Assembly (NCBI GenBank): GCA_016235045.1
Contig: JACRME010000016.1
Span: 124,001 to 188,000, forward strand
DNA from: Nitrosomonadales bacterium
Lineage (GTDB): Bacteria; Pseudomonadota; Gammaproteobacteria; Burkholderiales; Gallionellaceae
Length of the DNA: 64,000 bases
Direction of reading: 5' to 3'
Below are positions 9,688-30,661 of the stretch, piece by piece. The notes below the pieces were generated by a model. The model saw nothing but the letters and a program-made list of their open reading frames with translations, did no database searches and had not been told where the DNA came from. The position numbers and the translations under genes are program-made. Position 1 is the first letter of the stretch; every line of letters starts with the position of its first letter.

Positions 9688-10620
9688 TCACTCCCATTCC
9701 AGTTGCGGATACAGCAGCGCGACGTTGCGGCGGTTGACTGCGTCGAACAGCAGCCATTTGCCCTGCTCCGAGCGGGCGGCGGTCGGGATGGTCTGCTCCA
9801 TGCTCTGGCCCTGTTTGATGGCGTTGCGCACATCGGCCAGCAGGGTTTCGAGGTAACGCTTCTCGTCGTCGAGGGCGGCACCCAGCGCTTTGGCGGTGGA
9901 GCCGTGTCCCGCAACGAAATGCATTGCGGGGGTGGCGCGCAATTGTTCGATCACTTCCAGCCAGCCCTGAATGCTGCCGTCGAGGGAAGGCGTGCGCTCG
10001 ACGAACAGCAGGTCGCCGGTCCACAGGGTCTTGCTCGCCGTATCGAACACGCTCAGGTCGGCCGGGCTGTGCGCGACCGGATGGGCCGTGAGGCGCAGGA
10101 TGCGCCCGCCCAGATCGATTTCGCGCGAGGTTGCGACGGGCAGGGAGGGCGGGATCATTTCGGTTCCGGCGGCATCCTCGCCTACCCACTCGACCTGGTT
10201 GCGCAAATAGGCTTCCTTGCGCAGCGCCATGGCCTCGACCAGTTTGCCGTGGCCGATAAAAACAGGGTTATCCTGCTTGAAAGCGGCATTGCCGAGGGAG
10301 TGGTCGGGATGGACATGCGTGGTGATGACATACAGAATGGGCAGGGTGGAGACTTTGCGTATCGCTTCGCGCAAGCGCGAACCGGTTTTCGGCGAACCGC
10401 CGGTGTCGATCACGGCAATTCCTTTGTTGCCGACCACGAAGCCGATATTGCAGATGTCGCCGCCGTAACCGGCAGTGAGGTCTTTGTGCTCGCCGTGGTG
10501 GACGTAAATGCCGGCCGCGATTTTTTCGACCGGGAACGGTTCAGCGGGTGCAAGGGCGGGGAATAATAAGAACAGGATGAGAAGTTTTGGCATTTGTTGT
10601 GCAAATTTCAATAAAAACAT
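9688..10620 (-). CDS. MBL-fold metallohydrolase, SoxH / quinoprotein-relay type
   Basis: About 310 aa from the chosen start. A signal-peptide-like N-terminus (hydrophobic run ending Leu-Ala-Pro-Ala) precedes a metallo-beta-lactamase fold with the metal motif Thr-His-Val-His-Pro-Asp-His, a later Ala-His-Ser in place of the usual single His, Thr-Gly-Asp-Leu and a final Gly-His-Gly. The family includes SoxH and zinc metallohydrolases of quinoprotein systems; the substrate is unknown. Start is uncertain: ATG at 10620 or 10593 give a signal peptide, while a GTG at 10731 would not; none has a convincing ribosome binding site. Divergent from tusA. Confidence 0.72.
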   Translation of the reverse strand: MFLLKFAQQMPKLLILFLLFPALAPAEPFPVEKIAAGIYVHHGEHKDLTAGYGGDICNIGFVVGNKGIAVIDTGGSPKTGSRLREAIRKVSTLPILYVITTHVHPDHSLGNAAFKQDNPVFIGHGKLVEAMALRKEAYLRNQVEWVGEDAAGTEMIPPSLPVATSREIDLGGRILRLTAHPVAHSPADLSVFDTASKTLWTGDLLFVERTPSLDGSIQGWLEVIEQLRATPAMHFVAGHGSTAKALGAALDDEKRYLETLLADVRNAIKQGQSMEQTIPTAARSEQGKWLLFDAVNRRNVALLYPQLEWE

Positions 10621-10833
10621 ATTATTGTTGCGATGTGCCAGGCATTGAGGAAGCTTGGCGGATGTCGATGGCTCAAGCAGGAATTGCATAACCCGGATAC
10701 GAATAACACCAATGGGGTATCTGTTTTCCACTTATTGGTTATGGACGTTTGTATCGAGTATATTCCTATAATGCTACTCAGTTATAGTGCTGACCCGCAC
10801 TTTTTTTAAACAGTATGAACGAGGGAGAAAACC

Positions 10834-11061
10834 ATGAATTTCGATAAAGAGTTGAACGCACGCGGCCTGTCTTGTCCTTTGCCGATCGTGAAGACCAAGA
10901 AGGCACTGGCCGACATGACATCCAACCAGGTGCTCAAGGTTATTTCGACCGACACCGGCTCGGTCAAGGACATGGCTGCTTTTGCCGAGCAGACCGGCAA
11001 TCCGCTGCTGTCCACTGTTGAAGAGAACGGCGAATTCGTGTTTTACATGAAGAAAAAATAA
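10834..11061 (+). CDS. tusA: TusA-family sulfurtransferase
   Basis: A 75-aa cytoplasmic persulfide carrier with the Cys-Pro-Leu-Pro active-site motif near residue 14. In sulfur oxidisers TusA receives sulfane sulfur, often from rhodanese and DsrE2, and delivers it to DsrEFH/DsrC. It is followed 25 bp later by a dsrE2-type gene, the conserved pairing; the rhodanese gene of some rhd-tusA-dsrE2 loci is not here. A TATAAT at 10767-10772 lies upstream without a good -35, so the promoter is only suggested. Confidence 0.92.
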   Translation: MNFDKELNARGLSCPLPIVKTKKALADMTSNQVLKVISTDTGSVKDMAAFAEQTGNPLLSTVEENGEFVFYMKKK

Positions 11062-11086
11062 TTCAACCAACGACAAGGGAGCGAGC

Positions 11087-11557
11087 ATGGCAAACAAGAA
11101 AATGGCGATCATCGCCACCAAAGGCACACTGGACATGGCGTATCCGCCGTTCATCCTGGCTTCGACCGCGGCCGCACTGGGCTACGACGTACAGGTGTTC
11201 TTCACCTTCTACGGCCTGCAACTGCTGCGCAAGGATCTTTCCAACGTCATGATCAGCCCGCTGGCAAACCCGGCGATGCCGATGCCGGTGCCGATGCCGG
11301 TGATGGTGCAGATGCTGCCGGGCATGGAATCGATGGCGACCATGATGATGAAGCAGAAACTCAAGAAGCATGGCGTCGCCTCGCTGACCGAACTGCGCGA
11401 CCTGTGCCTGGAAGCGGACGTGAAATTCATCGCCTGCCAGATGACTGTCGACCTGTTCGAGTTCGACAAGAGTGAGTTCATCGACAACGTCGAGTACGGC
11501 GGCGCCGCGACCTTCATGGGTTTTGCCGGAGACACCGATATCTGTCTGTTCGTTTAA
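11087..11557 (+). CDS. dsrE2: DsrE2-like sulfur-relay protein
   Basis: A 156-aa DsrE/DsrF-fold protein. The Pro-Met-Pro-rich loop (residues 63-72), the Met-rich segment after it and the Cys in Ala-Cys-Gln-Met-Thr near residue 121 are characteristic of the DsrE2 group, which can bind sulfur and pairs with TusA in sulfur oxidisers. Likely role: membrane-proximal transfer of sulfane sulfur to TusA. It begins 25 bp after tusA. A membrane-inserting hydrophobic stretch (Val-Phe-Phe-Thr-Phe-Tyr-Gly region) is short, so membrane location is uncertain. Confidence 0.85.
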   Translation: MANKKMAIIATKGTLDMAYPPFILASTAAALGYDVQVFFTFYGLQLLRKDLSNVMISPLANPAMPMPVPMPVMVQMLPGMESMATMMMKQKLKKHGVASLTELRDLCLEADVKFIACQMTVDLFEFDKSEFIDNVEYGGAATFMGFAGDTDICLFV

Positions 11558-11624
11558 GTTTGAGGTAGTTGCAACGGGAGACGCCAACGTGGCGCCTTTA
11601 ATTAACTGTCAGGGAGAGTGAAGC

Positions 11625-13067
11625 ATGAGAATTAATAGAATAGCAGCTTCGTTGTTTTCGTTGGGCATGGTGGCTTCGCCATTCGCCTTTGCCACCAACG
11701 GCATGAATCTTGAAGGGTATGGCCCCGTCGCGGAAGCGATGGGCGGTGCTTCCATGGCCTACGACAACGGCACGGCCGCTGTCATGAACAACCCGGCCAC
11801 CTTGGGCTTGATGAAGGAAGACGTGCATTTCGATGCTGCCCTGGGCGTTCTTGCTCCCAGCATTAAAGCGAAGATGCCCGGCGCATCGGCAGATTCCTCT
11901 GCAACCGCTTTCTACATGCCTGCCGTGGGTTACGCCCGCAAGTCGGGACAATGGGTGTACGGCGCTGCCGTCTTTTCTCAAGGCGGCATGGGCACGGAAT
12001 ATGATTCCAACTCCTTCATGGCGGCAGGAACCGGCGAGAAGGTGCGTTCGGAAGTGGGCGTCGGTCGCTTCATCGTTCCGCTGGTCTACAAGCCAAATGA
12101 CCAGGTGACAGTCGGCGGCAGTCTGGATTTCGTCTGGGCGGGTATGGATCTGAAAATGGCGCTGTCGGGCGCGCAATTCGGGGATATGGTGGCTGGACTG
12201 GGCGGTACTCAAACCTACGGCGCCGTCAGCGGCTCCATGGCTGACACCCTGGTAGGCGCATTTACCGTACCGCAAGCAGCGTGCGGCGGGGTGCCTTGCC
12301 TGTCGACGATGAACTGGGCGCGTGTGGATTTCTCCAACAGCAGCGCTTTCACCGGCCAGGCCAAGGGTAACGGTTCCGCCTTCAAGCTGGGCGGCACCTA
12401 CAAAGTCAACGAGCAACTGACTTTGGGTGCGACATTCCACAGCAAGACCTCTCTGGGCGATCTCACGACTACCGGCGCTTCGATGGCGATGAACGTCACA
12501 GGTCCGGCAACAATGGGTACTCCCACCACAATCACAGTAAACGGCAGTGTTGCGGTCAAGAATTTCCAGTGGCCGCAAACGTTTGCTTTTGGCGCTGCTT
12601 ACCAGGCCAACGACCAATTGCTGTTGGTCGCGGACTTCAAGCGCATCGGCTGGAAGGATGTCATGAAGAACTTCAGCATGACCTTTACAGCCAATTCTGC
12701 GCAGGATGATCCAAGCGCAACCGCGTTTGGTCTGGGCGGGCAAGTGGTGAACATGTCGCTGAACCAGAATTGGGATGACCAGAACGTGATCCAATTGGGC
12801 GGCGCTTACAAGTCGTCCGATGCGCTGACCCTGCGTGCCGGTCTCAATATGGCCAACAATCCGGTTCCGGACAAATACATGCACCCCTTGTTCCCGGCGA
12901 TCGCCAAGAACCACCTGACCCTGGGCGCGGGCTACGCTATCAGCAGCAATTCCAAGGTTGACTTCTCGTATGTCTATGTGCCCACGGTGACTGCCACCAA
13001 TGGCTCGGGCATATCGGTAGATTTCGCCGGATACAGCGCCCAACTGCTCTACGCTTACATGTACTGA
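11625..13067 (+). CDS. FadL/OmpP1-family outer-membrane protein
   Basis: A 480-aa beta-barrel protein with a signal peptide (cleavage near residue 23, Ala-Phe-Ala) and the start of the mature chain in the FadL style: Thr-Asn-Gly-Met-Asn-Leu-Glu-Gly-Tyr-Gly, then an Asn-Pro-Ala-Thr segment. The C-terminus alternates hydrophobic residues and ends in an aromatic, as barrel proteins do. FadL proteins pass hydrophobic compounds. Following tusA-dsrE2 by 67 bp and preceding a strong terminator, it may be the last gene of a sulfur-uptake unit, for example for polysulfide or organic sulfur; that role is inference. Confidence 0.85.
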   Translation: MRINRIAASLFSLGMVASPFAFATNGMNLEGYGPVAEAMGGASMAYDNGTAAVMNNPATLGLMKEDVHFDAALGVLAPSIKAKMPGASADSSATAFYMPAVGYARKSGQWVYGAAVFSQGGMGTEYDSNSFMAAGTGEKVRSEVGVGRFIVPLVYKPNDQVTVGGSLDFVWAGMDLKMALSGAQFGDMVAGLGGTQTYGAVSGSMADTLVGAFTVPQAACGGVPCLSTMNWARVDFSNSSAFTGQAKGNGSAFKLGGTYKVNEQLTLGATFHSKTSLGDLTTTGASMAMNVTGPATMGTPTTITVNGSVAVKNFQWPQTFAFGAAYQANDQLLLVADFKRIGWKDVMKNFSMTFTANSAQDDPSATAFGLGGQVVNMSLNQNWDDQNVIQLGGAYKSSDALTLRAGLNMANNPVPDKYMHPLFPAIAKNHLTLGAGYAISSNSKVDFSYVYVPTVTATNGSGISVDFAGYSAQLLYAYMY

Positions 13068-13103
13068 GCAGGGCAAGCCTGAAGGTATCTCCGATACCAA
13101 ATG

Positions 13104-13140
13104 AAAATGGCTGACGAAGAAATTCGTCAGCCATTTTTTT
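13104..13140. terminator. Strong bidirectional terminator after the FadL-type gene
   Basis: A perfect stem of at least 13 bp (AATGGCTGACGAA with TTCGTCAGCCATT) and a 4-nt loop, with A-run before and T-run after, ends transcription from both directions. Confidence 0.92.
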
Positions 13141-13173
13141 GTTTACTGCTGGCATGAATCCGGCTAAGCCGAA

Positions 13174-13270
13174 CATTCCCTCCCCCTTGCAGGGGTTAGG
13201 GAGGGGGTAGAAGCGCTCCGATCCACAACTCTACCCCCATCCCGGCCTTCCCCCTGCAAGGGGGAAGGAG
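13174..13270. repeat. REPIN-like palindromic repeat
   Basis: Two inverted arms, each built around CCCTCCCCCTTGCAGGGG-type sequence (about 13174-13210 and 13230-13270), flank a short centre. This GC-rich extragenic palindrome resembles REP doublets common in beta- and gammaproteobacteria. It lies between the terminator of the FadL-type gene and the end of the TauD-like gene. With the terminator it fills most of the 302-bp gap 13068-13369; the rest (13271-13369) shows nothing I can name. Confidence 0.75.
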
Positions 13271-13369
13271 CGGGTTCGCTCCAATGGATTTTTTGGCATG
13301 AATGTAGACTGGCGAGTAGAAGCTGCGCGAACCTGGGAATGTAGGGTCGGCACCAAATACGTGCTCACC

Positions 13370-14242
13370 TTATGAGAGGATGCGGTCCAGATACCGGGCT
13401 CGATACAGCAAACGCGGCGGATGGGCTGAGTTGTCGCTGAAGGCGGAGCGGTCATGCAGCACGTTGTTGCACAGCAACCCCATGCCGGGTTCGAGGCGCG
13501 CCTTGAAGATGTGCGGCGTGGCGGATGCCAGCAATTTCTCCAGCGCTGCGACTGCGGCTTGCGTCGCGGCATCCTGTTTCCAGGCGATGCTGCGGGTGCG
13601 GGCGGTATAGCGCATATGCAGGTTGCCATCGGCATCCAGCGAAAACACCGGGCCGCTTTGCGCGGCGCGCACGCCGTCGGTCTCGTCCACCCGTTCCGGT
13701 ATGGTCATCGCATCCGGTTGCATCAGCGCCCGGATATGCTGCGGGTTTTCATCGCGCAGCAGCAGGTAAGCCATTTCGTGGTCCATCAGCCGGTTTTCGC
13801 CGCCGCTGGCTGCGTTGCGCACGCAATGCAGCACCATGGCGCGTATCTCGCGCTCCGGCGGGTTGTAATAGCCGTCGGAGTGCCACTTGATCGGGCGGTC
13901 GGTGTAGGGGATGTAGTGCTGGCGCGTGCCGTTGTCGAACACGCGAATCTCCGAGACGCCGTCTTCGCCCGCCAGCCAGTTGGCATCCAGATGCACCAGT
14001 CCGAACTGGGCGCCCAGCAGGCGCGGGATGTCGGTGTCGGCCTCGTGCACCGGGCTGGCGTAGATCGCCATGTTGCAGCGGTGGATGCGCTCGGCGAGGG
14101 CGGCGTGTTCGTTGGGGCTGAGCTGGCGCGGGTCGCGCACTTCGACAACGAGTTCGCTTACCGAGGTTGGGGCGGCGGACAGTTTCCGGTCCCGCCAGCG
14201 CAGGAAACTTTCCGCATCGTTCAAATCGAACTGATTGATCAT
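13370..14242 (-). CDS. TauD/TfdA-family Fe(II)/2-oxoglutarate-type dioxygenase
   Basis: A 290-aa cytoplasmic protein. The iron-binding His-x-Asp is visible in Trp-His-Ser-Asp-Gly-Tyr-Tyr near residue 131, the distal His in Asn-Val-Leu-His-Asp-Arg near residue 263, and an Arg in the C-terminal Pro-Arg-Leu-Leu-Tyr-Arg segment fits the co-substrate site. Family members oxidise taurine, sulfonates, herbicides and other small molecules, so substrate cannot be told. It starts directly after the stop of the preceding 198-aa gene and is last in the six-gene operon with tandem TusA and a DsrC paralogue, which suggests a sulfur-linked substrate. That link is inference. Confidence 0.83.
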   Translation of the reverse strand: MINQFDLNDAESFLRWRDRKLSAAPTSVSELVVEVRDPRQLSPNEHAALAERIHRCNMAIYASPVHEADTDIPRLLGAQFGLVHLDANWLAGEDGVSEIRVFDNGTRQHYIPYTDRPIKWHSDGYYNPPEREIRAMVLHCVRNAASGGENRLMDHEMAYLLLRDENPQHIRALMQPDAMTIPERVDETDGVRAAQSGPVFSLDADGNLHMRYTARTRSIAWKQDAATQAAVAALEKLLASATPHIFKARLEPGMGLLCNNVLHDRSAFSDNSAHPPRLLYRARYLDRILS

Positions 14243-14839
14243 TCAATCCCCGCCAGAGGAGGCACGCCGACGCGGTTTTTTCGGTTCCTCTTCGTTTAAA
14301 CCGCGCAGTGTCTTTTCCACCATTTTGACCGCTTCCGGCGCCTCGAAACTGATCATCGGGTCGATGATCCAGTTGGCGTCTTCCCCGGTCATGACCTCGC
14401 CGATGCAAAAGGCGAGGTAGCGGTAGAACCCGTAATCCGGGCCGTTTTCGTCGTAGCCGAAATCGGCATACTCGCCGGCGCGATGGTTGAGCAGGTCGAT
14501 GAAGCGCTGTTTGCATTGTTTGAGGCCTTCGCCGAGCAGTCGGCTACGGTTCTCGGCGTAGGTCTCGCCCACGCGGTTCGCCAGGTTGCCGGTAAAAACT
14601 AGGCGGTCTTCTGCCGAAAGCTGGCGGTGGGCGATGCGGTCGGCGACCAGGATGAGGAACAGCAGGAATTCCGCGAGGAAATCGAGGTATTGCGGGCCGA
14701 CCTCGATCTCGAATTTCGCTTTGCGCGTGTTCTTGAGCGCGTTATCGGCGATGCGCGAGACCGTGAACGACAGCGCATCCGAAATCTCTTGCGGAGAACG
14801 TTCGCGGCCTTCCTTGAACCAGTTGCTTTTGATGCGCAA
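14243..14839 (-). CDS. Uncharacterised 198-aa protein in the TusA-TauD operon
   Basis: I do not recognise a family. The protein appears mostly helical, with a leucine-rich amphipathic region at residues 50-70, two tyrosine/aspartate-rich turns near 120-140, and a basic disordered tail of Lys-Pro-Arg-Arg-Arg type. There is no signal peptide. Start is TTG at 14839 with AAAGG 7-8 bp upstream; no alternative ATG is in frame upstream. It lies 3 bp after the tandem tusA gene and touches the TauD-like gene, so it is translated in the same unit and may partner either protein. Confidence 0.75.
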   Translation of the reverse strand: MRIKSNWFKEGRERSPQEISDALSFTVSRIADNALKNTRKAKFEIEVGPQYLDFLAEFLLFLILVADRIAHRQLSAEDRLVFTGNLANRVGETYAENRSRLLGEGLKQCKQRFIDLLNHRAGEYADFGYDENGPDYGFYRYLAFCIGEVMTGEDANWIIDPMISFEAPEAVKMVEKTLRGLNEEEPKKPRRRASSGGD

Positions 14840-14842
14840 TGC

Positions 14843-15316
14843 TCAACCTTTGCGAACGTAGAACTCGTGCACACCGGCACCCGCTTCGATAGTCTCGAGC
14901 AAGGTCATGCCGGTGGCGGAGGCCCAGCCGCCGATGTCGGATTGCACGCCCGGACAATCGCTGATCAGTTTCAGAATCTCGCCGTTTTGCATGCCGTTCA
15001 GCAGTTTCTTGGCTTCGACGATGGGGCCGGGGCAGACGGCGCCGCGGATGTCCAGCGTGACGTTGGCGTTGAGCGCATGTCCCATGCCTTTCTGAATGTG
15101 GTAGCCGGTTCCGCCGCCGGGCATTTTCTCCGTCTTCAAAATCTGGTTGCCGGTTTGCTTTGCCCAGGCGAACAGGTCATCCGGCGTGCCGGGACAGTCA
15201 GACACCAGCAGCAGCACCTGTCCGGAGGAAAGTTCATCCATCATGCGTTTGGCGCCGATCAGCGGCCGCGGGCAAGAAAGTCCCTTCATGTCCAGAACAA
15301 CGTTGACCATATCCAT
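14843..15316 (-). CDS. Tandem TusA-domain sulfurtransferase
   Basis: A 157-aa protein made of two TusA domains in one chain. Domain 1 (about 5-78) has Cys-Pro-Arg-Pro near residue 15; domain 2 (about 86-157) has Cys-Pro-Gly-Pro near residue 95. Both retain the persulfide-carrying cysteine. Each domain also has an additional Ser-Asp-Cys-Pro-Gly segment (near residues 40 and 123), giving four cysteines in symmetric positions. TusA is normally a single 75-80 aa domain. ATG 15316 has AAGGAG 6 bp upstream. Likely a cytoplasmic sulfur carrier or intramolecular relay; partner unknown. Confidence 0.88.
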   Translation of the reverse strand: MDMVNVVLDMKGLSCPRPLIGAKRMMDELSSGQVLLLVSDCPGTPDDLFAWAKQTGNQILKTEKMPGGGTGYHIQKGMGHALNANVTLDIRGAVCPGPIVEAKKLLNGMQNGEILKLISDCPGVQSDIGGWASATGMTLLETIEAGAGVHEFYVRKG

Positions 15317-15429
15317 TTGTTTCTCCTTATAACCAGATAGTTGCTGGCATTTCTTGCTGATTTGCTCGAATGGCTGGTTTTGGCAGGATCGGGGGTTATG
15401 CCGAACTGTCAGCTCTCCGATCCTGATTT

Positions 15430-15759
15430 TTAGTAACCGCCCTTGCCGAGTGGTTGCGGCAATCCTGCGATCTTGGCAGCCTGTTTCGCAGGTCCGACCG
15501 GAAACAGATCGTACAACGCTTTGCTGTCCGCTTCAGGCCAAAATTCGTTGACGCCTTTCAGCATGTTGCGGAAATTCGGCGTATGGCCATTTTCCTTGTA
15601 TTCCTCGCGCATGTAATTGATGACCTCCCAGTGCTTTGGGGTCAGCGTTATGCCTTCGGCTGCTGCGATCACGTTCACGACTTCTTCGCTGTAATCCGGC
15701 TCCAGCAGATAGCCTTCGTCATTGGTTTCCAGTTCGTTGCCTGCCACAGTGTATCCCAT
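15430..15759 (-). CDS. DsrC-family protein lacking both redox cysteines (RspA-like)
   Basis: A 109-aa member of the DsrC/TusE family. The Glu-Gly-Tyr-Leu motif near residue 16, the His-Trp-Glu-Val-Ile-Asn core near 42 and the Leu-Phe-Pro-x-Gly-Pro C-terminal arm are conserved. The arm carries Ala where DsrC has its inner Cys and ends in Gly-Lys-Gly-Gly-Tyr with no penultimate Cys. DsrC proteins without these cysteines have been grouped as regulatory (RspA) rather than catalytic. A canonical dsrC with both cysteines lies at 20378. Start ATG 15759 follows an AAGGAAAGG stretch. Confidence 0.9.
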   Translation of the reverse strand: MGYTVAGNELETNDEGYLLEPDYSEEVVNVIAAAEGITLTPKHWEVINYMREEYKENGHTPNFRNMLKGVNEFWPEADSKALYDLFPVGPAKQAAKIAGLPQPLGKGGY

Positions 15760-15788
15760 CGCTTTTCCTTTCCTTTTTAGTAAAAACG

Positions 15789-16370
15789 TCACTCCAGACT
15801 GGAGATGACCTTGTACGGCACAAAAATTCCGCAACCAAACTGCCTTTCACCGCCCAGACCCGCGTATTGGACGCGTAGCGAACCTTCCGGCAACAGGTCG
15901 TGCAACACCAGGCTGTAGCCCTTGATCGTACGTTGCCCATCCGTCAGCACGCGGCGCTGGCCGCAGATCAGGCTGGCTTTTACCTGCATTTCCGCCAGAG
16001 CCGATTCCACGTCGAGCACGAAAGCAACCTCTTCCTCGTCGCCAGTCACCAGTTGCGCATGCAGGGTAGGGTAATGCTGTATCGGCCGGGGCTTGCAAGA
16101 ACCCAGCTGCAATTCGCTTCCCGCCACCTGCAACCGCTGCCGGGCCAGCCCGGAGACGACTTCGACCAGTTCCTGCGGCAGCCGCAGGGCCAATTTGGCC
16201 CGCCTTGGGAGCAGCATTCCTTCCTTGCTTTCCGCCATACGCAACGGAAGGACGCCGATGTTTTCGGCTTCTTCCAGTTGCGGGATGAGCCTGGTCAGTT
16301 CCGCCCACAAGCCGTATGGATAAGCCGAAGGCAGCGTTCCGCCGCTTATATCGAAAACCAGGTCGATCAT
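15789..16370 (-). CDS. Cas6/Cmx6-like RAMP protein without a CRISPR locus
   Basis: A 193-aa protein that resembles the type I-MYXAN Cas6/Cmx6 family in length and pattern: an N-terminal Asp-Leu-Val-Phe-x-Ile-Ser-Gly strand, an Arg-Arg-x-Lys-Leu-x-Leu-Arg-Leu-Pro segment near residue 58, a central Leu-x-Leu-Gly strand, and a C-terminal glycine-rich loop (Gly-Leu-Gly-Gly-x3-Phe-Gly-Cys-Gly-Ile-Phe-x-Pro) near residues 170-183, typical of RAMP RNA-binding proteins. At the N-terminal helix, where related proteins as I recall them carry a candidate catalytic His, this one reads Ala-Tyr-Pro-Tyr. No repeat array or other cas gene is present. ATG 16370 or GTG 16391 (overlapping the upstream stop) are both possible starts. 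Family assignment is from memory of motifs. Confidence 0.68.
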   Translation of the reverse strand: MIDLVFDISGGTLPSAYPYGLWAELTRLIPQLEEAENIGVLPLRMAESKEGMLLPRRAKLALRLPQELVEVVSGLARQRLQVAGSELQLGSCKPRPIQHYPTLHAQLVTGDEEEVAFVLDVESALAEMQVKASLICGQRRVLTDGQRTIKGYSLVLHDLLPEGSLRVQYAGLGGERQFGCGIFVPYKVISSLE

Positions 16371-16387
16371 TTCCGCGGCAGGGGTTG

Positions 16388-16603
16388 TCACTGTTCGCCC
16401 TGATTGTTGGCCCACCGTTGCATGGCGGCCGCCCATTGTCCGGCAGTGTCCGGATCGACATCGAATATGGTAAAGCGCTTGCCTTCCCTGATGCGAACGC
16501 GCAGCATGCTCATACCGCCTTCCGCGTGGTCGATCTGCTGCAATTCGATTTGCTGTCCTCCCAATGGGACATTAAACTTGCCCAGTTCGGTGATTTTCGC
16601 CAT
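16388..16603 (-). CDS. Small 71-aa conserved-looking protein
   Basis: A 71-aa cytoplasmic protein with no cysteine, a basic beta-rich middle (Leu-Arg-Val-Arg-Ile-Arg-Glu-Gly near residues 35-42), then Phe-Asp-Val-Asp-Pro and an amphipathic C-terminal helix with two Trp. I cannot name its family. It is the first gene of the minus-strand operon that continues with the Cas6-like gene, 17 bp after its stop (or overlapping if GTG 16391 is used). The 291-bp divergent gap to dsrA (16604-16894) must hold promoters for both directions; I see no convincing -35/-10 pair there. Confidence 0.68.
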   Translation of the reverse strand: MAKITELGKFNVPLGGQQIELQQIDHAEGGMSMLRVRIREGKRFTIFDVDPDTAGQWAAAMQRWANNQGEQ

Positions 16604-16894
16604 ATCTGCCCTGATAAAGTATGATGAACCGGTTTGGCGCATCGACGAACCCAGTGAATGGGCTAAGTCTAGCGCCAATACCGCCCTGTTTGAATACTAC
16701 TGGGGAAGGAAAAAGTACCACCCTTTAGGGTTACCGCGGATAGCCGCTACGGGTGATGGTTTGGCTTGCCCCGGCACCGTAACATGCATGACCATTAAGA
16801 AACCGGGACGGTAGCCCGTGCCAAAACCCGTAGGATACCGGAATTCCAGCCCCCGCCGGGCACCATAGCGCAACGCGACTGAAAGGAAGACATT

Positions 16895-18190
16895 ATGGCG
16901 AAAAAGATGCATAACACCCCGAATCTGGACGAGCTCGAAAAGGGCAAGTGGCCGAGTTTTGTCACCGGCCTGAAACGTCTGGCCAAAGATAAGGACATCG
17001 CGGTCGACCTGCTGGGTCAGCTCGAGGCCTCTTACAAGACCCGCAAGGGCTACTGGAAGGGCGGCACGGTGGGCGTGTTCGGTTACGGCGGAGGCGTGAT
17101 CCCGCGCTTCACCGAGCTGAAAAATCCCGACGGCACCCCCCAGTTCAAGGATGCGGCCGAATTCCACACGCTGCGCATCATGCCCCCGCCCGGCATGCAC
17201 TACGATACCGACACCCTGCGCAAATTCTGCGACATCTGGGAAAAGCACGGTTCCGGCCTGATCGCTTTCCACGGCCAATCCGGCGACATCATGTTCCAGG
17301 GCTGCAACACCGAGAACGTGCAAAAGGCCTTCGACGAATTCAACGAGATGGGTTTCGACCTCGGCGGCGCCGGCCCCGCAGTGCGTACCTCCATGTCTTG
17401 CGTCGGCGCCGCCCGTTGCGAACAGTCCTGCTACAACGAAGCCCAGGCGCACCGTGCCGTGCTGAACACCTTCCTCGACGATCTGCACCGTCCTTCCCTG
17501 CCGTACAAGTTCAAGTTCAAGTTCTCGGGTTGCCCGAACGACTGCATGAACGCGATCCAGCGCGCCGACATGGCCGTGATCGGAACCTGGCGCGACAACA
17601 TCCGCACCGACGAGGCATTGGCCCAGAAGTGGTTCGCCAAGCACGGCATGGATGAGCTGGTAAACGACATTGTGGCGCGTTGCCCGACCAAGACCTTCCA
17701 GGTCAAGGAACTCGGCAAGATCAAGAAGGGCGAGCACATCTCCAGCGTGGCGGTGAGCGCGACCCATGGCGTCGAGATCGACAACCAGGATTGCGTGCGC
17801 TGCATGCACTGCATCAACGTGATGACCGGCGCACTGGCTCCCGGCAAGGACAAGGGCGCAAGCGTGCTGATCGGCGGCAAGAGCCACCTGAAGATCGGCG
17901 GCCTGATGGGCACCGTGGTGATCCCGTTCATCAAGCTGGATACCGAAGAGGAAGTCGAAGTGCTGGTCGATTTCGCGCAACGCGCCATCGACTTCTTCGC
18001 CGAGAACGCGCTGGAGCACGAGCGTACCGGCGAGATGATCGAGCGTATCGGTCTGGCCAACTACCTCGAAGCGATGGAGATCGACGTGGATCCGGCGATG
18101 ATCAGCTCGCCGCGCATGAACCCCTACGTCCGTACCGACGGTTGGGACGACGAAGTCGCCAAGATCAAAGCCAAGAAGCAAGCTGCTTAA
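16895..18190 (+). CDS. dsrA: Dissimilatory sulfite reductase alpha subunit (reverse type)
   Basis: A 431-aa cytoplasmic siroheme enzyme subunit. With DsrB it forms an alpha2beta2 enzyme which in sulfur oxidisers releases sulfite from DsrC-bound sulfur. Cysteines for the siroheme-coupled [4Fe-4S] cluster are visible in Cys-Val-Gly-Ala-Ala-Arg-Cys near residue 169 and Gly-Cys-Pro-Asn-Asp-Cys near 211. A ferredoxin insertion (Cys-Val-Arg-Cys-Met-His-Cys) sits near residue 300. ATG 16895 has AAAGGAAG about 7 bp upstream. First gene of dsrABEFHCMKLJOPN; the neighbouring dsrEFH and dsrL mark it as the oxidative type. Confidence 0.97.
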   Translation: MAKKMHNTPNLDELEKGKWPSFVTGLKRLAKDKDIAVDLLGQLEASYKTRKGYWKGGTVGVFGYGGGVIPRFTELKNPDGTPQFKDAAEFHTLRIMPPPGMHYDTDTLRKFCDIWEKHGSGLIAFHGQSGDIMFQGCNTENVQKAFDEFNEMGFDLGGAGPAVRTSMSCVGAARCEQSCYNEAQAHRAVLNTFLDDLHRPSLPYKFKFKFSGCPNDCMNAIQRADMAVIGTWRDNIRTDEALAQKWFAKHGMDELVNDIVARCPTKTFQVKELGKIKKGEHISSVAVSATHGVEIDNQDCVRCMHCINVMTGALAPGKDKGASVLIGGKSHLKIGGLMGTVVIPFIKLDTEEEVEVLVDFAQRAIDFFAENALEHERTGEMIERIGLANYLEAMEIDVDPAMISSPRMNPYVRTDGWDDEVAKIKAKKQAA

Positions 18191-27274: not shown

Positions 27275-28681
27275 ATGAACCGCATGCTGATCTCGGCAGC
27301 ACACAAATCCTCCGGAAAAACCATGGTAAGCATCGGTCTGTGCGCGGCGCTTGCCGCGCGCGGCCACGTGGTGCAGCCGTTCAAGAAAGGCCCCGACTAC
27401 ATCGACCCGATGTGGCTCAGCCAGGCCGCCGGGCGATCCTGCTTCAACCTCGACCTTTACCTGATGGAGCGCGACGACATCGTCGCCACCTTCGACCGCC
27501 ACAGCGCCGAGGTGAATCTGGTCGAGGGCAACAAGGGTCTGTACGACGGACTCGCGCTGGACGGCAGCAACAGCAACGCCGCGCTGGCCAAGCTGCTCGA
27601 CCTGCCGGTGGTGCTGGTGATCGACGCGCGCGGCATGACGCGCGGCATCGCGCCGCTGATCCTCGGCTACCAGGCCTTCGACCGCGACATCGACATTGCC
27701 GGCGTGATCCTCAACAACCTCGGCGGCCGTCGCCACGAATCCAAGCTGCGCGAAGTGATCGAGCATTACACCGACGTGCCGGTGATCGGCGCCATCCAGT
27801 ATGACGAGCGCCTCTCCATCGAGGAGCGCCATCTCGGCCTGATGCCCAGCAACGAATCGCATGTCGCCGCCTCCAAGATCAAGCAGATCGGCGAGGCCAT
27901 CGCCGAGCAGGTCGATCTGGACAAGCTGCTGGAACTGTCGCGGAAAGAGCCGCTGGCCGTCCCGCACAAGGCGGTAGTGAGCCCGCTGCCCTGCGGCGAC
28001 AAGGTCAGGATCGCCATCGCGCGCGACCGCTCCTTCGGTTTCTATTACGCCGACGACCTCGAAGCGCTGGAGGCGGCGGGCGCGGAACTGGTGCCGTTCG
28101 ACGCGCTGCGCGACGCGCAACTGCCGGAAGTGGACGGGCTGTACATCGGCGGCGGTTTTCCCGAGACCTGTGCCACCGAACTGGAAGCCAACGCCAGCCT
28201 GCGCGCCGGTATCAAGCAGGCCATCGAAAACGGCCTGCCGGCCTATGCCGAATGCGGCGGCCTGATGTACCTGTCGCGCGGCATAGAGTACGAAGGACGC
28301 AATTACGAAATGGTCGGCGCCATTCCCGGCGACGTGAAGATGCACGCCAAGCCCATCGGCCGCGGCTATGTGCACCTGAAGGAAGCGGAGGCGCACCCGT
28401 GGCCGCGCCCGGATACACCTGCCAAACAGATCAAGGCCCACGAGTTCCACTATTCCAGCCTGGAGAACCTTCCGTCGGACTCGCGCTTCGCTTACCATGT
28501 CGAGCGCGGTTACGGCATCGACGGCGACCGCGACGGGCTCATTCTGCATAACCTGCTGGCTTCCTATACCCACCTGCGCACCATCGGCAGTTGCTACTGG
28601 GCGACCCGCTTCGTCGCTTTCGTCCGGCGGTGCAAGGAGCAGCAGGGCAAACCAATTTCAACTATCGGGAAATCGCTATGA
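27275..28681 (+). CDS. dsrN: DsrN, CobB/CbiA-type amidase for siroheme
   Basis: A 468-aa cytoplasmic enzyme of the cobyrinic acid a,c-diamide synthase family. In dsr clusters it amidates siroheme to siroamide for DsrAB. Residues 1-220 hold an ATP-binding domain (Ser-Ser-Gly-Lys-Thr near residue 12, a P-loop-like site); the C-terminal half is a class I glutamine amidotransferase with Glu-Cys-Gly-Gly near residue 327 supplying the catalytic Cys and a His near 390. The ATG lies 19 bp after dsrP. Its stop overlaps the next start (ATGA). Confidence 0.94.
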   Translation: MNRMLISAAHKSSGKTMVSIGLCAALAARGHVVQPFKKGPDYIDPMWLSQAAGRSCFNLDLYLMERDDIVATFDRHSAEVNLVEGNKGLYDGLALDGSNSNAALAKLLDLPVVLVIDARGMTRGIAPLILGYQAFDRDIDIAGVILNNLGGRRHESKLREVIEHYTDVPVIGAIQYDERLSIEERHLGLMPSNESHVAASKIKQIGEAIAEQVDLDKLLELSRKEPLAVPHKAVVSPLPCGDKVRIAIARDRSFGFYYADDLEALEAAGAELVPFDALRDAQLPEVDGLYIGGGFPETCATELEANASLRAGIKQAIENGLPAYAECGGLMYLSRGIEYEGRNYEMVGAIPGDVKMHAKPIGRGYVHLKEAEAHPWPRPDTPAKQIKAHEFHYSSLENLPSDSRFAYHVERGYGIDGDRDGLILHNLLASYTHLRTIGSCYWATRFVAFVRRCKEQQGKPISTIGKSL

Positions 28682-29281: not shown

Positions 29282-30661
29282 GTGGATTTTCTGCCGATCT
29301 TTGCCAAAGTAAAAGGCAAGCCCTGCCTGGTGGTGGGCGGGGGCGAGGTCGCCAAACGCAAGGCAGGCGTGCTGCTGGAGGCGGGCGCGCAGGTGCGCGT
29401 GGTGGCCCCCGAGATCGATGCCGAGTTGCAGGCTGAAAAAGGCGTCGAGGCCATCGCCGCGCGTTTTGAGGAAGGACACCTGGACGGCATGATGCTGGTC
29501 GTCGCTGCCACCAACAACCGCGAAGTGAACAAGCTGGTCTCCCTGCTGGCGCAGGCGCGCAACATCCCGGTGAACGTGGTCGACGATCCCGAGTTGTGCA
29601 GCTTCATCATGCCGGCCATCCTCGACCGTTCGCCGCTGATGATCGCGTTCTCCAGCGGCGGCGCTTCGCCGGTGCTGACGCGCATGATGCGCGGCAGGCT
29701 GGAGACGATGATCCCGCAGAATTACAGCCGCCTGGCCGCCTTTGCCGAGCGCTTCCGCGAACTGGTCAAGAGCCGCGTCACCAATCCGCCCAAGCGCCGC
29801 ATCTTCTGGGAGAACGTGTTCGAAGGCGTGGTGGCCGAAAAGGTGCTGACCGGCGACGAGGCGAGCGCCGAAGCGATGCTGCAACAGATGCTGAAGAACG
29901 AGGACAACATCCGGCGCGGCGAGGTATACCTGGTCGGCGCCGGTCCCGGCGATCCCGACCTGCTCACGTTCCGCGCGCTGCGCCTGATGCAGAAAGCCGA
30001 TGTGGTGGTATACGACAACCTGGTGTCCAAGCCCATCGTCGAGATGACGCGGCGCGATGCCGAGCGCATCTACGTCGGCAAAAAGCGCGACGACCACACG
30101 CTGCGCCAGGAAGAGATCAACGACCTGCTGGTGCGTCTGGCCAAGGAAGGCAAGCGCGTGCTGCGCCTCAAGGGCGGCGACCCGTTCATTTTCGGGCGCG
30201 GCGGCGAGGAGATCGAGACGCTGGCGGAGGAGGGCATCCCGTTCCAGGTGGTGCCGGGTATCACCGCCGCCTCGGGTGTTGCATCCTATGCCGGTATACC
30301 GCTGACGCACCGCGATTACGCGCAGTCCTGCATGTTCGTCACCGGCCATCTGAAAGACGGCACCATGAATCTGGACTGGGATGCGCTGGCGCGCCCGAAA
30401 CAGACCGTGGTGGTGTACATGGGGCTGCACGGCCTCGACACCCTGTGCGCCAAGCTCATCGAGCACGGCCTGCCGGATTCCACGCCCATCGCCATCGTGC
30501 AGCAGGGCACCACGCAAAACCAGCGTGTCATCTCCGGCACGTTGAAGACCTTGCCGGGAATTGCAGAACGCGAGAAACCGCAAGCCCCCACGCTCATCAT
30601 CGTCGGCGGCGTGGTCACGTTGCGCGAGAAACTGGCCTGGTTCCATCCGCAAAAATCTTGA
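29282..30661 (+). CDS. cysG: Siroheme synthase, trifunctional CysG
   Basis: A 459-aa enzyme that makes siroheme from uroporphyrinogen III. Residues 1-150 are the NAD-dependent precorrin-2 dehydrogenase/ferrochelatase domain (Gly-Gly-Gly-Glu-Val-Ala near residue 19); residues about 215-455 are the SAM uroporphyrin-III methyltransferase (Val-Gly-Ala-Gly-Pro-Gly-Asp-Pro near 219, [10 protein letters not shown] near 298). Start is GTG at 29282, one base after the DUF4202 stop. Position at the end of dsr indicates dedicated cofactor supply for DsrAB. Confidence 0.95.

Follow-up and report, generated by a model that had tools for sequence, protein, structure and literature searches.

In the passages of PMC5944118, PMC5728499, PMC10952691, PMC5109826 and PMC4046663 in which it is named, cas6 is used for CRISPR (clustered regularly interspaced short palindromic repeats). 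The legend of Fig. 3B in PMC10989796 (mLife 2023) colours cas6 amid the dissimilatory sulfur genes of proteobacterial metagenome-assembled genomes (MAGs) from mangroves; in the excerpted text of that paper, which names Burkholderiales and Chromatiales MAGs with dsr genes, cas6 occurs once, in the legend only and uncommented. Here we describe an operon in which a Cas6-family gene stands close to a divergent dsrA. It is found in a 64,000-nucleotide stretch, referred to as the window, of contig JACRME010000016.1 (genome G000), which belongs to a Nitrosomonadales bacterium of the family Gallionellaceae. In a relative, Sideroxydans lithotrophicus ES-1, thiosulfate raises the expression of the dsr genes, listed as Slit_1675–1686, and of sox genes, and the excerpted text of PMC8788666 does not mention the genes of the operon.

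At the reverse (oxidative) Dsr locus the operon forms an accessory module, and this module is conserved. A Cas6 lineage independent of CRISPR is an almost constant member of this module in the sampled Betaproteobacteria and Gammaproteobacteria, a statement that we hold to be close to certain. A Cas6 protein without an apparent CRISPR system, next to a key enzyme of sulfur oxidation, points to an unexplained second job in sulfur metabolism, and we infer that the dsr-linked Cas6 works for sulfur oxidation.

A Cas6-Family Gene in an Operon Divergent From dsrA

Six open reading frames (ORFs) on the minus strand occupy positions 13370–16603, back to back with dsrA, which starts at 16895 on the plus strand. 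Listed from the dsrA side, the genes are:

16895..18190, plus strand: dsrA, the divergent partner (TIGR02064, 491 bits, above the cut-off)
after dsrA through to 24989, plus strand: dsrB, E, F, H, C, M, K and L (by gene order)
16388..16603, minus strand: DUF6967 protein, 71 amino acids (aa), first gene of the operon (PF22295, E 4.8e-32, Pfam)
15789..16370, minus strand: Cas6/Cmx6-family RAMP (repeat-associated mysterious protein) protein, 193 aa (PF09559, E 6.5e-55; TIGR02807)
15430..15759, minus strand: cysteine-less DsrC paralogue, 109 aa, C-terminus KGGY (PF04358, E 3.7e-34)
14843..15316, minus strand: tandem TusA (TusA-TusA), 157 aa (PF01206, E 9.9e-38, in two stretches)
14243..14839, minus strand: 198-aa all-helical protein of no family, TTG start (no Pfam match)
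13370..14242, minus strand: TauD/TfdA-like 2-oxoglutarate/Fe(II) dioxygenase, 290 aa (PF02668, E 1.1e-18)

The intergenic gaps, again from the dsrA side, are 17, 29, 113, 3, and 0 bp. An original prediction made from the DNA letters had described six tightly packed minus-strand genes divergent from dsrA, and all the ORFs lie where it placed them. Its cysteine-less DsrC, tandem TusA and TauD-like dioxygenase agree with Pfam and with the translations, and only its 71-aa "unknown" has to be corrected, as this protein has a family, DUF6967.

The same prediction had called the 193-aa protein Cas6/Cmx6-like. The profiles place it in Cas6 and not in a non-RAMP family: it scores 186.5 bits with PF09559 in Pfam (cut-off 26.7) and 141.2 bits with the NCBIfam family TIGR02807, cas6_cmx6 (cut-off 98.85). 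A profile built from 64 dsr-linked copies retrieves the Cas6 of a type I-B CRISPR-associated transposon (CAST), 8fcj_B, with E 3e-32. The predicted model has a mean pLDDT (predicted local distance difference test) of 94.1; Foldseek matches it to the CAST Cas6 8fcu_B (E 3.3e-17, TMq 0.89), and against the RNA-bound Cas6 3pkm_A it reaches a TMq of 0.69. By both profile and fold the protein is a true Cas6/Cmx6-family protein with the RAMP (double ferredoxin-like) fold.

Cas6 Follows dsrA and Not CRISPR

Among 120 Gallionellaceae genomes, Cas6 and dsrA occur together in 68 and are both absent from 50; Cas6 is never found alone, and dsrA alone is found twice. Both dsrA-only loci are broken contigs: that of G037 stops within one base of its DUF6967 match, and G072 has just a 3′ fragment of dsrA at a contig end. 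The dsrA count comprises 65 genomes above the cut-off and five with partial genes (G006, G021, G030, G072, and G075). At E ≤ 0.001 the dsrA profile matches 102 of the 120 genomes, and the 32 with weak matches alone, of the kind that controls such as E. coli also gave, were treated as carrying other sirohaem reductases. No link to Cas1 could be seen in the same genomes (both genes in 26, Cas6 only in 42, Cas1 only in 26, neither in 26; p = 0.26).

A profile search did not find Cas1 in the window genome, which is 95% complete, and the 64-kb window holds no direct-repeat array, the remainder of the genome not having been searched for arrays. The neighbours of the window Cas6 are DUF6967 and the DsrC-like gene; cas3, cas8/cmx8, and cas7 are not beside it. 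Six relatives were found on plasmids, all of them cyanobacterial, and five of these adjoin cas3; the sixth has no cas genes in the stretch shown. There were no viral relatives among 18 pattern matches. In a tree of 54 rows, the 48 dsr-linked copies are separated, with support 100/99, from five CRISPR copies and from that of Gloeobacter. The gammaproteobacterial copies form one group (100/98) and the betaproteobacterial copies from outside Gallionellaceae do not. The tree holds 54 of 161 sequences, with only six outside rows.

The family name of TIGR02807, "type I-MYXAN Cas6/Cmx6", would suit a stray gene from a CRISPR system with a continuing role in CRISPR RNA maturation. We rejected a CRISPR role for the window Cas6 given the missing genomic Cas1, the missing Cas1 link, the split in the tree and the lack of an array in the window. 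The neighbourhoods also differ, with cas3 beside five of the six plasmid relatives as opposed to dsrA within 5.2 kb of 57 of 80 copies in the class. We consider the chance that it still serves CRISPR to be negligible.

The sixth plasmid relative (L343, plasmid pGMOR1 of Gloeobacter morelensis) has cas6/cmx6 beside a gene of the PAPS-reductase family, a cupin gene and hypothetical genes, with no cas3, and this is perhaps another non-CRISPR context of the Cas6/Cmx6 family.

Conservation of the Module in Burkholderiales

DUF6967, Cas6, and the DsrC-like gene are divergent from dsrA in all 20 loci from the same genus. Across Gallionellaceae we compared 67 loci with dsrA (67 of 68 stretches, G043 being excluded as it is split on two contigs), in which DUF6967 was found 66 times, Cas6 65, the DsrC-like gene 64, TusA-TusA 54, and the 198-aa protein and TauD 63 times each. 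The missing genes sit at contig ends, save for TusA-TusA, for which there are nine real absences from otherwise complete clusters.

The tie to dsrA extends to the rest of the order. In 399 Burkholderiales genomes, DUF6967 and dsrA co-occur in 76 and are both missing from 312; no genome has DUF6967 only, and 11 have dsrA only. Seven of these 11 were examined: five have Cas6 beside dsrA, and in the other two the contig breaks at or just past dsrA. From the 67 genomes with DUF6967 outside Gallionellaceae we examined 40 loci. DUF6967 is beside dsrA in all 40, and the 198-aa gene is also present in all of them, followed by Cas6 (35), TauD (33), the DsrC-like gene (30), and TusA-TusA (16). Five betaproteobacterial loci (L233, L234, L235, L240, and L243) have a tandem rhodanese flanked by the DsrC-like gene and the 198-aa gene, and TusA-TusA is missing from four of these loci; one such rhodanese was scanned with profiles and matched PF00581 (E 1e-30).

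Some Burkholderiales have further dsrA copies. Five stretches (L355–L359; genomes G297, G430, G356, G456, and G482) hold extra dsrA copies, and neither dsrB nor any further dsr gene was recognised within these stretches. L360–L363 (G587, G660, G651, and G560) have second dsrAB pairs that are accompanied neither by dsrEFH nor by the module.

Conservation of the Module in Gammaproteobacteria

A class-wide draw of 369 genomes gave PF09559 matches in 118. We checked 80 of the 117 other than the window genome for dsrA, and 76 of these have it at E ≤ 1e-40 (72 above the cut-off). The distance between Cas6 and dsrA is at most 5.2 kb in 57 of the 80 genomes and 42 kb on the same contig in one; the two genes are on separate contigs in 18, and four have no dsrA match. 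In these four (G572, G598, G631, and G690) TauD adjoins Cas6 and the contig ends less than 400 bases from TauD, which is where dsrA would be expected. Of 37 stretches centred on Cas6, 27 have dsrA divergent alongside; as the 37 were picked by hand, 17 of them when the positions of dsrA had already been determined, we rely on the distance count (57/80) for the share of copies beside dsrA.

The typical gammaproteobacterial order is dsrA, TauD, a 70-aa protein, often a 270-aa protein, Cas6, and the DsrC-like gene (ending RKGGY), with the 198-aa gene further on where it is found. The loci L304, L310, L306, and L307 contain extra conserved families of ∼70, ∼270, and ∼100 aa, none of them over a Pfam cut-off. 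Comparison of the 70-aa protein with DUF6967 by hhalign gave E 0.0034 and a probability of 9.5%, which is only suggestive of a remote DUF6967.

Cas6 and dsrA are not neighbours in a few genomes. For four stretches that lack dsrA (L312, L320, L327, and L334), a Pfam scan of ten flanking ORFs found no cas family. Two of these stretches, from one family, have Cas6 divergent from RNase III and flanked on its opposite side by a thioredoxin-like gene (L320:8785-10171 in G613 and L334:8678-10041 in G827), and in a third Cas6 follows a gene for a SpoU-type rRNA methylase (L312:8467-10029 in G537). All three loci away from dsrA that were examined for neighbours thus have an RNA-related gene beside Cas6, two of the three belonging to one family, and we count these neighbours in favour of a nucleic-acid site in the protein.

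Five genomes of only 1.0–1.1 Mb retain Cas6 (G544, G646, G758, G790, and G853). Four of the five were checked for Cas1, which all four lack, and the loci of G544, G790, and G853 (L319, L333, and L335) have Cas6 beside dsrA. Retention in such small genomes, beside dsrA and without Cas1, does not sit easily with a role in defence. A draw across the phylum gave PF09559 in two of 234 genomes (that of the window and G161, which is also a dsr genome) and says little on Alphaproteobacteria.

Within the module Cas6 often shows the lowest conservation of all the proteins, and it is under purifying selection, with a ratio of non-synonymous to synonymous substitutions (dN/dS) of 0.08–0.20 in all 11 close pairs. 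This bears on the idea that the six genes are passengers, standing beside dsr through chance or shared descent with no function in sulfur metabolism. The variable presence of TusA-TusA and TauD and the few genomes with Cas6 away from dsrA would fit such an idea, which nevertheless seems extremely unlikely to us: the genes persist in numerous families from two lineages of Proteobacteria and in genomes of 1.0–1.1 Mb, the dN/dS values are low, and none of the 50 Gallionellaceae genomes that lack dsrA has Cas6.

The original prediction had placed an RNA-binding RAMP protein in a sulfur-trafficking operon divergent from dsrAB and had suggested that the operon may be a regulatory or RNA-modification module, for example for sulfur-dependent RNA regulation or for control of tRNA thiolation. 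Profile, fold, and co-occurrence support the presence of a RAMP protein in such an operon; the protein goes with dsrA rather than Cas1 in the 120 genomes, and the gene order, whose lack of conservation would have counted against the proposal, is kept far beyond the genus.

Conserved Residues of the Dsr-Linked Cas6

The glycine-rich loop GxGxxRxxGCG of Cas6 is kept in the window copy (G171, G173, R176, G179, C180, and G181). It is present in most of 160 compared sequences and in every group, and Arg63 is also kept throughout. The groups differ at the first residue of helix 1 (position 17), where a His is presumably the catalytic general base, as in studied Cas6 proteins. This His is found in all five CRISPR copies, in all 53 gammaproteobacterial rows (51 distinct sequences, G690 and G740 having been entered twice) and in 25 of 35 copies from other Betaproteobacteria, while the window copy and 65 of its 66 Gallionellaceae relatives have Tyr.

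A second His, at position 41, is found in 51 of the 53 gammaproteobacterial rows, 25/35 other betaproteobacterial copies, 2/66 Gallionellaceae copies, and none of the five CRISPR copies. Residues specific to Gallionellaceae are His104 (65/66), Cys136, and His157 (66/66 each). Among charged columns conserved at 85% or more, basic residues outnumber acidic ones by 9:3 in Gallionellaceae, 6:3 in the other Betaproteobacteria and 11:2 in Gammaproteobacteria, as compared with 8:5 in the five CRISPR copies. This mostly basic character favours a nucleic-acid site, and binding of RNA by the dsr-linked Cas6 is plausible.

The Intergenic Regions and the Search for an RNA Target

One conserved element lies between the divergent starts:

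16667..16801 (about), no strand assigned: conserved non-coding block (34/35 invariant columns in an alignment of 24 sequences)

The block carries repeated GGGTnA-like words. Analysis of the whole gap between dsrA and DUF6967 with RNAalifold (24 sequences) gave 7 pairs and 0 compensatory changes; the reverse strand was aligned but not folded. Rfam gave only four tRNAs in the window, and of 19 sub-threshold matches in 13100–17000 none falls within the block. As no compensatory change was found in the gap, we read the block as DNA; it probably contains control sites for a regulator of both operons.

The gap between the DsrC-like and TusA-TusA genes (15317–15429) contains a hairpin that is strong in the window. 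This candidate was set aside since it is not shared among the folds printed. The length of this gap ranges from 9 to 178 nt in 55 sequences. The gaps from dsrA to dsrM in the window are 9–40 nt.

The Other Genes of the Operon and Its Surroundings

The DsrC-like protein belongs to the DsrC family by profile (PF04358, 117.8 bits, cut-off 24.9), but none of its 109 residues is Cys, so that the conserved C-terminal cysteine of a sulfur carrier is missing. The KGGY end is common to betaproteobacterial and gammaproteobacterial copies. The tandem TusA keeps both CPxP motifs (CPRP and CPGP in the translation). In the TauD-like protein H121, D123, H263, and R277 are each kept in 64 of 65 sequences; we take the first three to be the HxD...H iron ligands and R277 to be the Arg for 2-oxoglutarate. 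The 198-aa protein is all helical in a predicted model with pLDDT 90. Its window copy has no Pfam match, single relatives gave stray matches only, and neither a sequence relative (best E 0.064) nor a fold at E ≤ 0.001 was found for it in the PDB.

TusA, DsrEFH, and DsrC are homologous to the relay for 2-thiouridine in tRNA. As they lie side by side here, the operon might be dedicated to thiolation of tRNA or other RNA, with the Cas6-like protein presenting RNA to a Tus-like relay made up of TusA-TusA, DsrEFH in the place of TusBCD and DsrC in the place of TusE. We regard this as improbable. Cysteine is lacking from the operon's own DsrC paralogue, TusA-TusA is missing from the nine otherwise complete Gallionellaceae clusters and found in only 16 of the 40 other betaproteobacterial loci, and Pfam and NCBIfam assign no thiolase or adenylating family to any of the six genes.

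Further genes of interest surround the operon and the dsr genes. Downstream of the operon (10834–13067) are TusA and DsrE2 (the pair at 10834–11557) and an ORF resembling an outer-membrane protein, a set that recurs near the module in many relatives. A SoxH-related gene, quinoprotein relay zinc metallohydrolase 2 (9688–10731; TIGR04559, 384.6 bits), adjoins the TusA-DsrE2 pair. On the other side the dsr run closes with a CobB/CobQ-like amidase gene (27275–28681, dsrN-like), downstream of which there is a gene for a CysG-type sirohaem synthase (29282–30661).

A Possible Role in Sulfur Oxidation

In the furthest-reaching reading, a Cas6-type ribonuclease lineage that left CRISPR, or never joined it, would have been fixed in lithotrophic sulfur oxidation across Beta- and Gammaproteobacteria. 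It would recognise a specific cellular RNA, cut it in most lineages and couple the state of the sulfur carriers to dsr expression, and in Gallionellaceae it would be an RNA-binding regulator that does not cut. We give this reading a probability of about one in three.

In the explanation that we favour, the Cas6-like protein keeps a RAMP groove with conserved Arg, Lys, and His and the glycine-rich loop, and with this groove it may bind one particular RNA that belongs to the sulfur-oxidation programme, either a dsr message or a small RNA. Such binding would make the dsr output follow the state of the sulfur carriers. The cysteine-less DsrC paralogue, unable to hold sulfur on a C-terminal Cys, could be the sensing or adaptor partner. 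Work cited in the excerpted text of PMC5944118 has DsrC of Allochromatium vinosum binding to the DNA upstream of that organism's dsr cluster, so that a regulatory role for a DsrC paralogue is not far-fetched. The gammaproteobacterial copies with the helix-1 His would cut the target RNA, and the Gallionellaceae copies with Tyr may bind it without cutting, or cut it by means of other residues. Sulfur state, a modification or scaffolding might be the contribution of the remaining four proteins, namely TusA-TusA, the dioxygenase, DUF6967, and the helical protein. The step at the level of RNA is the weak link, with chances that we would put slightly short of even.

Several observations weigh against the explanation. 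The dsr-linked proteins are acidic to neutral, which speaks against RNA binding of the CRISPR type: the median isoelectric point is 6.2 in Gallionellaceae, 7.1 in the other Betaproteobacteria and 6.2 in Gammaproteobacteria as compared with 9.4 in the five CRISPR Cas6, and the median net charges are −3.7, −0.7, and −3.8, respectively, as compared with +6.3. The presumed catalytic His is gone in Gallionellaceae (Tyr17). No RNA target was found in the intergenic block, the DsrC-TusA gap or the gaps from dsrA to dsrM. Five of the 40 other betaproteobacterial clusters (L249, L252, L253, L257, and L270) retain other genes of the module without Cas6; three of them (L252, L253, and L257) are from a single genus. 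Finally, the dsrA stretches of G537 and G613 hold no module gene, and in both genomes Cas6 is truly elsewhere.

Part of this evidence suits the main rival, in which the RAMP fold is reused at the level of protein and no RNA is involved. The Cas6-like protein would then act as a scaffold or an adaptor; together with the cysteine-less DsrC paralogue and TusA-TusA it would direct persulfide sulfur among DsrEFH, DsrC, and DsrAB or assist in the maturation of DsrAB. The acidity of the proteins and the retention of the gene despite the loss of the catalytic His are in line with such a role, as are the stable neighbours, namely sulfur carriers, a dioxygenase, and unknown proteins, together with the tandem rhodanese in several other betaproteobacterial modules. 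It is harder to reconcile with the predominance of basic residues at conserved charged positions, with the presence of the helix-1 His and glycine loop of RNA-cutting relatives, or with a His41 kept in 51 of 53 gammaproteobacterial rows. We hold this rival to be rather less likely than the explanation at the level of RNA.

Implications

Dsr-based sulfur oxidation is usually drawn without the module, and in the sampled groups the pathway thus has an unrecognised part, which is perhaps a control at the level of RNA. If Cas6 does recognise RNA here, a metabolic use of Cas6 outside defence would be as widespread as reverse Dsr in Beta- and Gammaproteobacteria. The presumably catalytic (His) and presumably non-catalytic (Tyr) forms make a natural pair that could show how an RNA-processing fold enters metabolism. 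The module is also a place to seek a function for DUF6967, the 198-aa helical protein, and the cysteine-less DsrC. For annotation, the neighbours of a "type I-MYXAN Cas6" in a sulfur oxidiser should be checked before the gene is counted as CRISPR equipment.

Comparison With Known Systems

The mangrove MAGs (PMC10989796) are an independent sighting of the co-location, and no conservation, module or function is given in the excerpted text. Their figure legend lowers any claim to a first sighting and leaves those on the extent of the association and its independence of CRISPR as they are. We found neither the module nor its conservation or function described in the openly accessible literature, subscription papers being outside the search.

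The order dsrABEFHCMKL of the window is common to the reverse dsr cluster of A. vinosum (dsrABEFHCMKLJOPNRS), for which the excerpted text of PMC3368242 names no Cas6, TauD or DUF6967 gene. With the TusA-DsrE2/rhodanese sulfur-transfer genes the operon shares TusA domains, but its TusA is tandem and sits with Cas6. The DsrC-like protein shares its profile with the DsrC/TusE/DsvC family and differs from it by the absence of any cysteine and by the KGGY C-terminus. Regulators without cysteine are called RspA, and a literature search found no paper that treats RspA together with DsrC and regulation. The Cas6 protein itself has the family, fold, glycine loop, and Arg63 of the type I-MYXAN Cas6/Cmx6 and of the type I-B CAST Cas6 (8fcj/8fcu). 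It differs from both in having no cas neighbours and no Cas1 in its genome, in being acidic and not basic, in standing apart in the tree and, in Gallionellaceae, in having Tyr in place of the helix-1 His.

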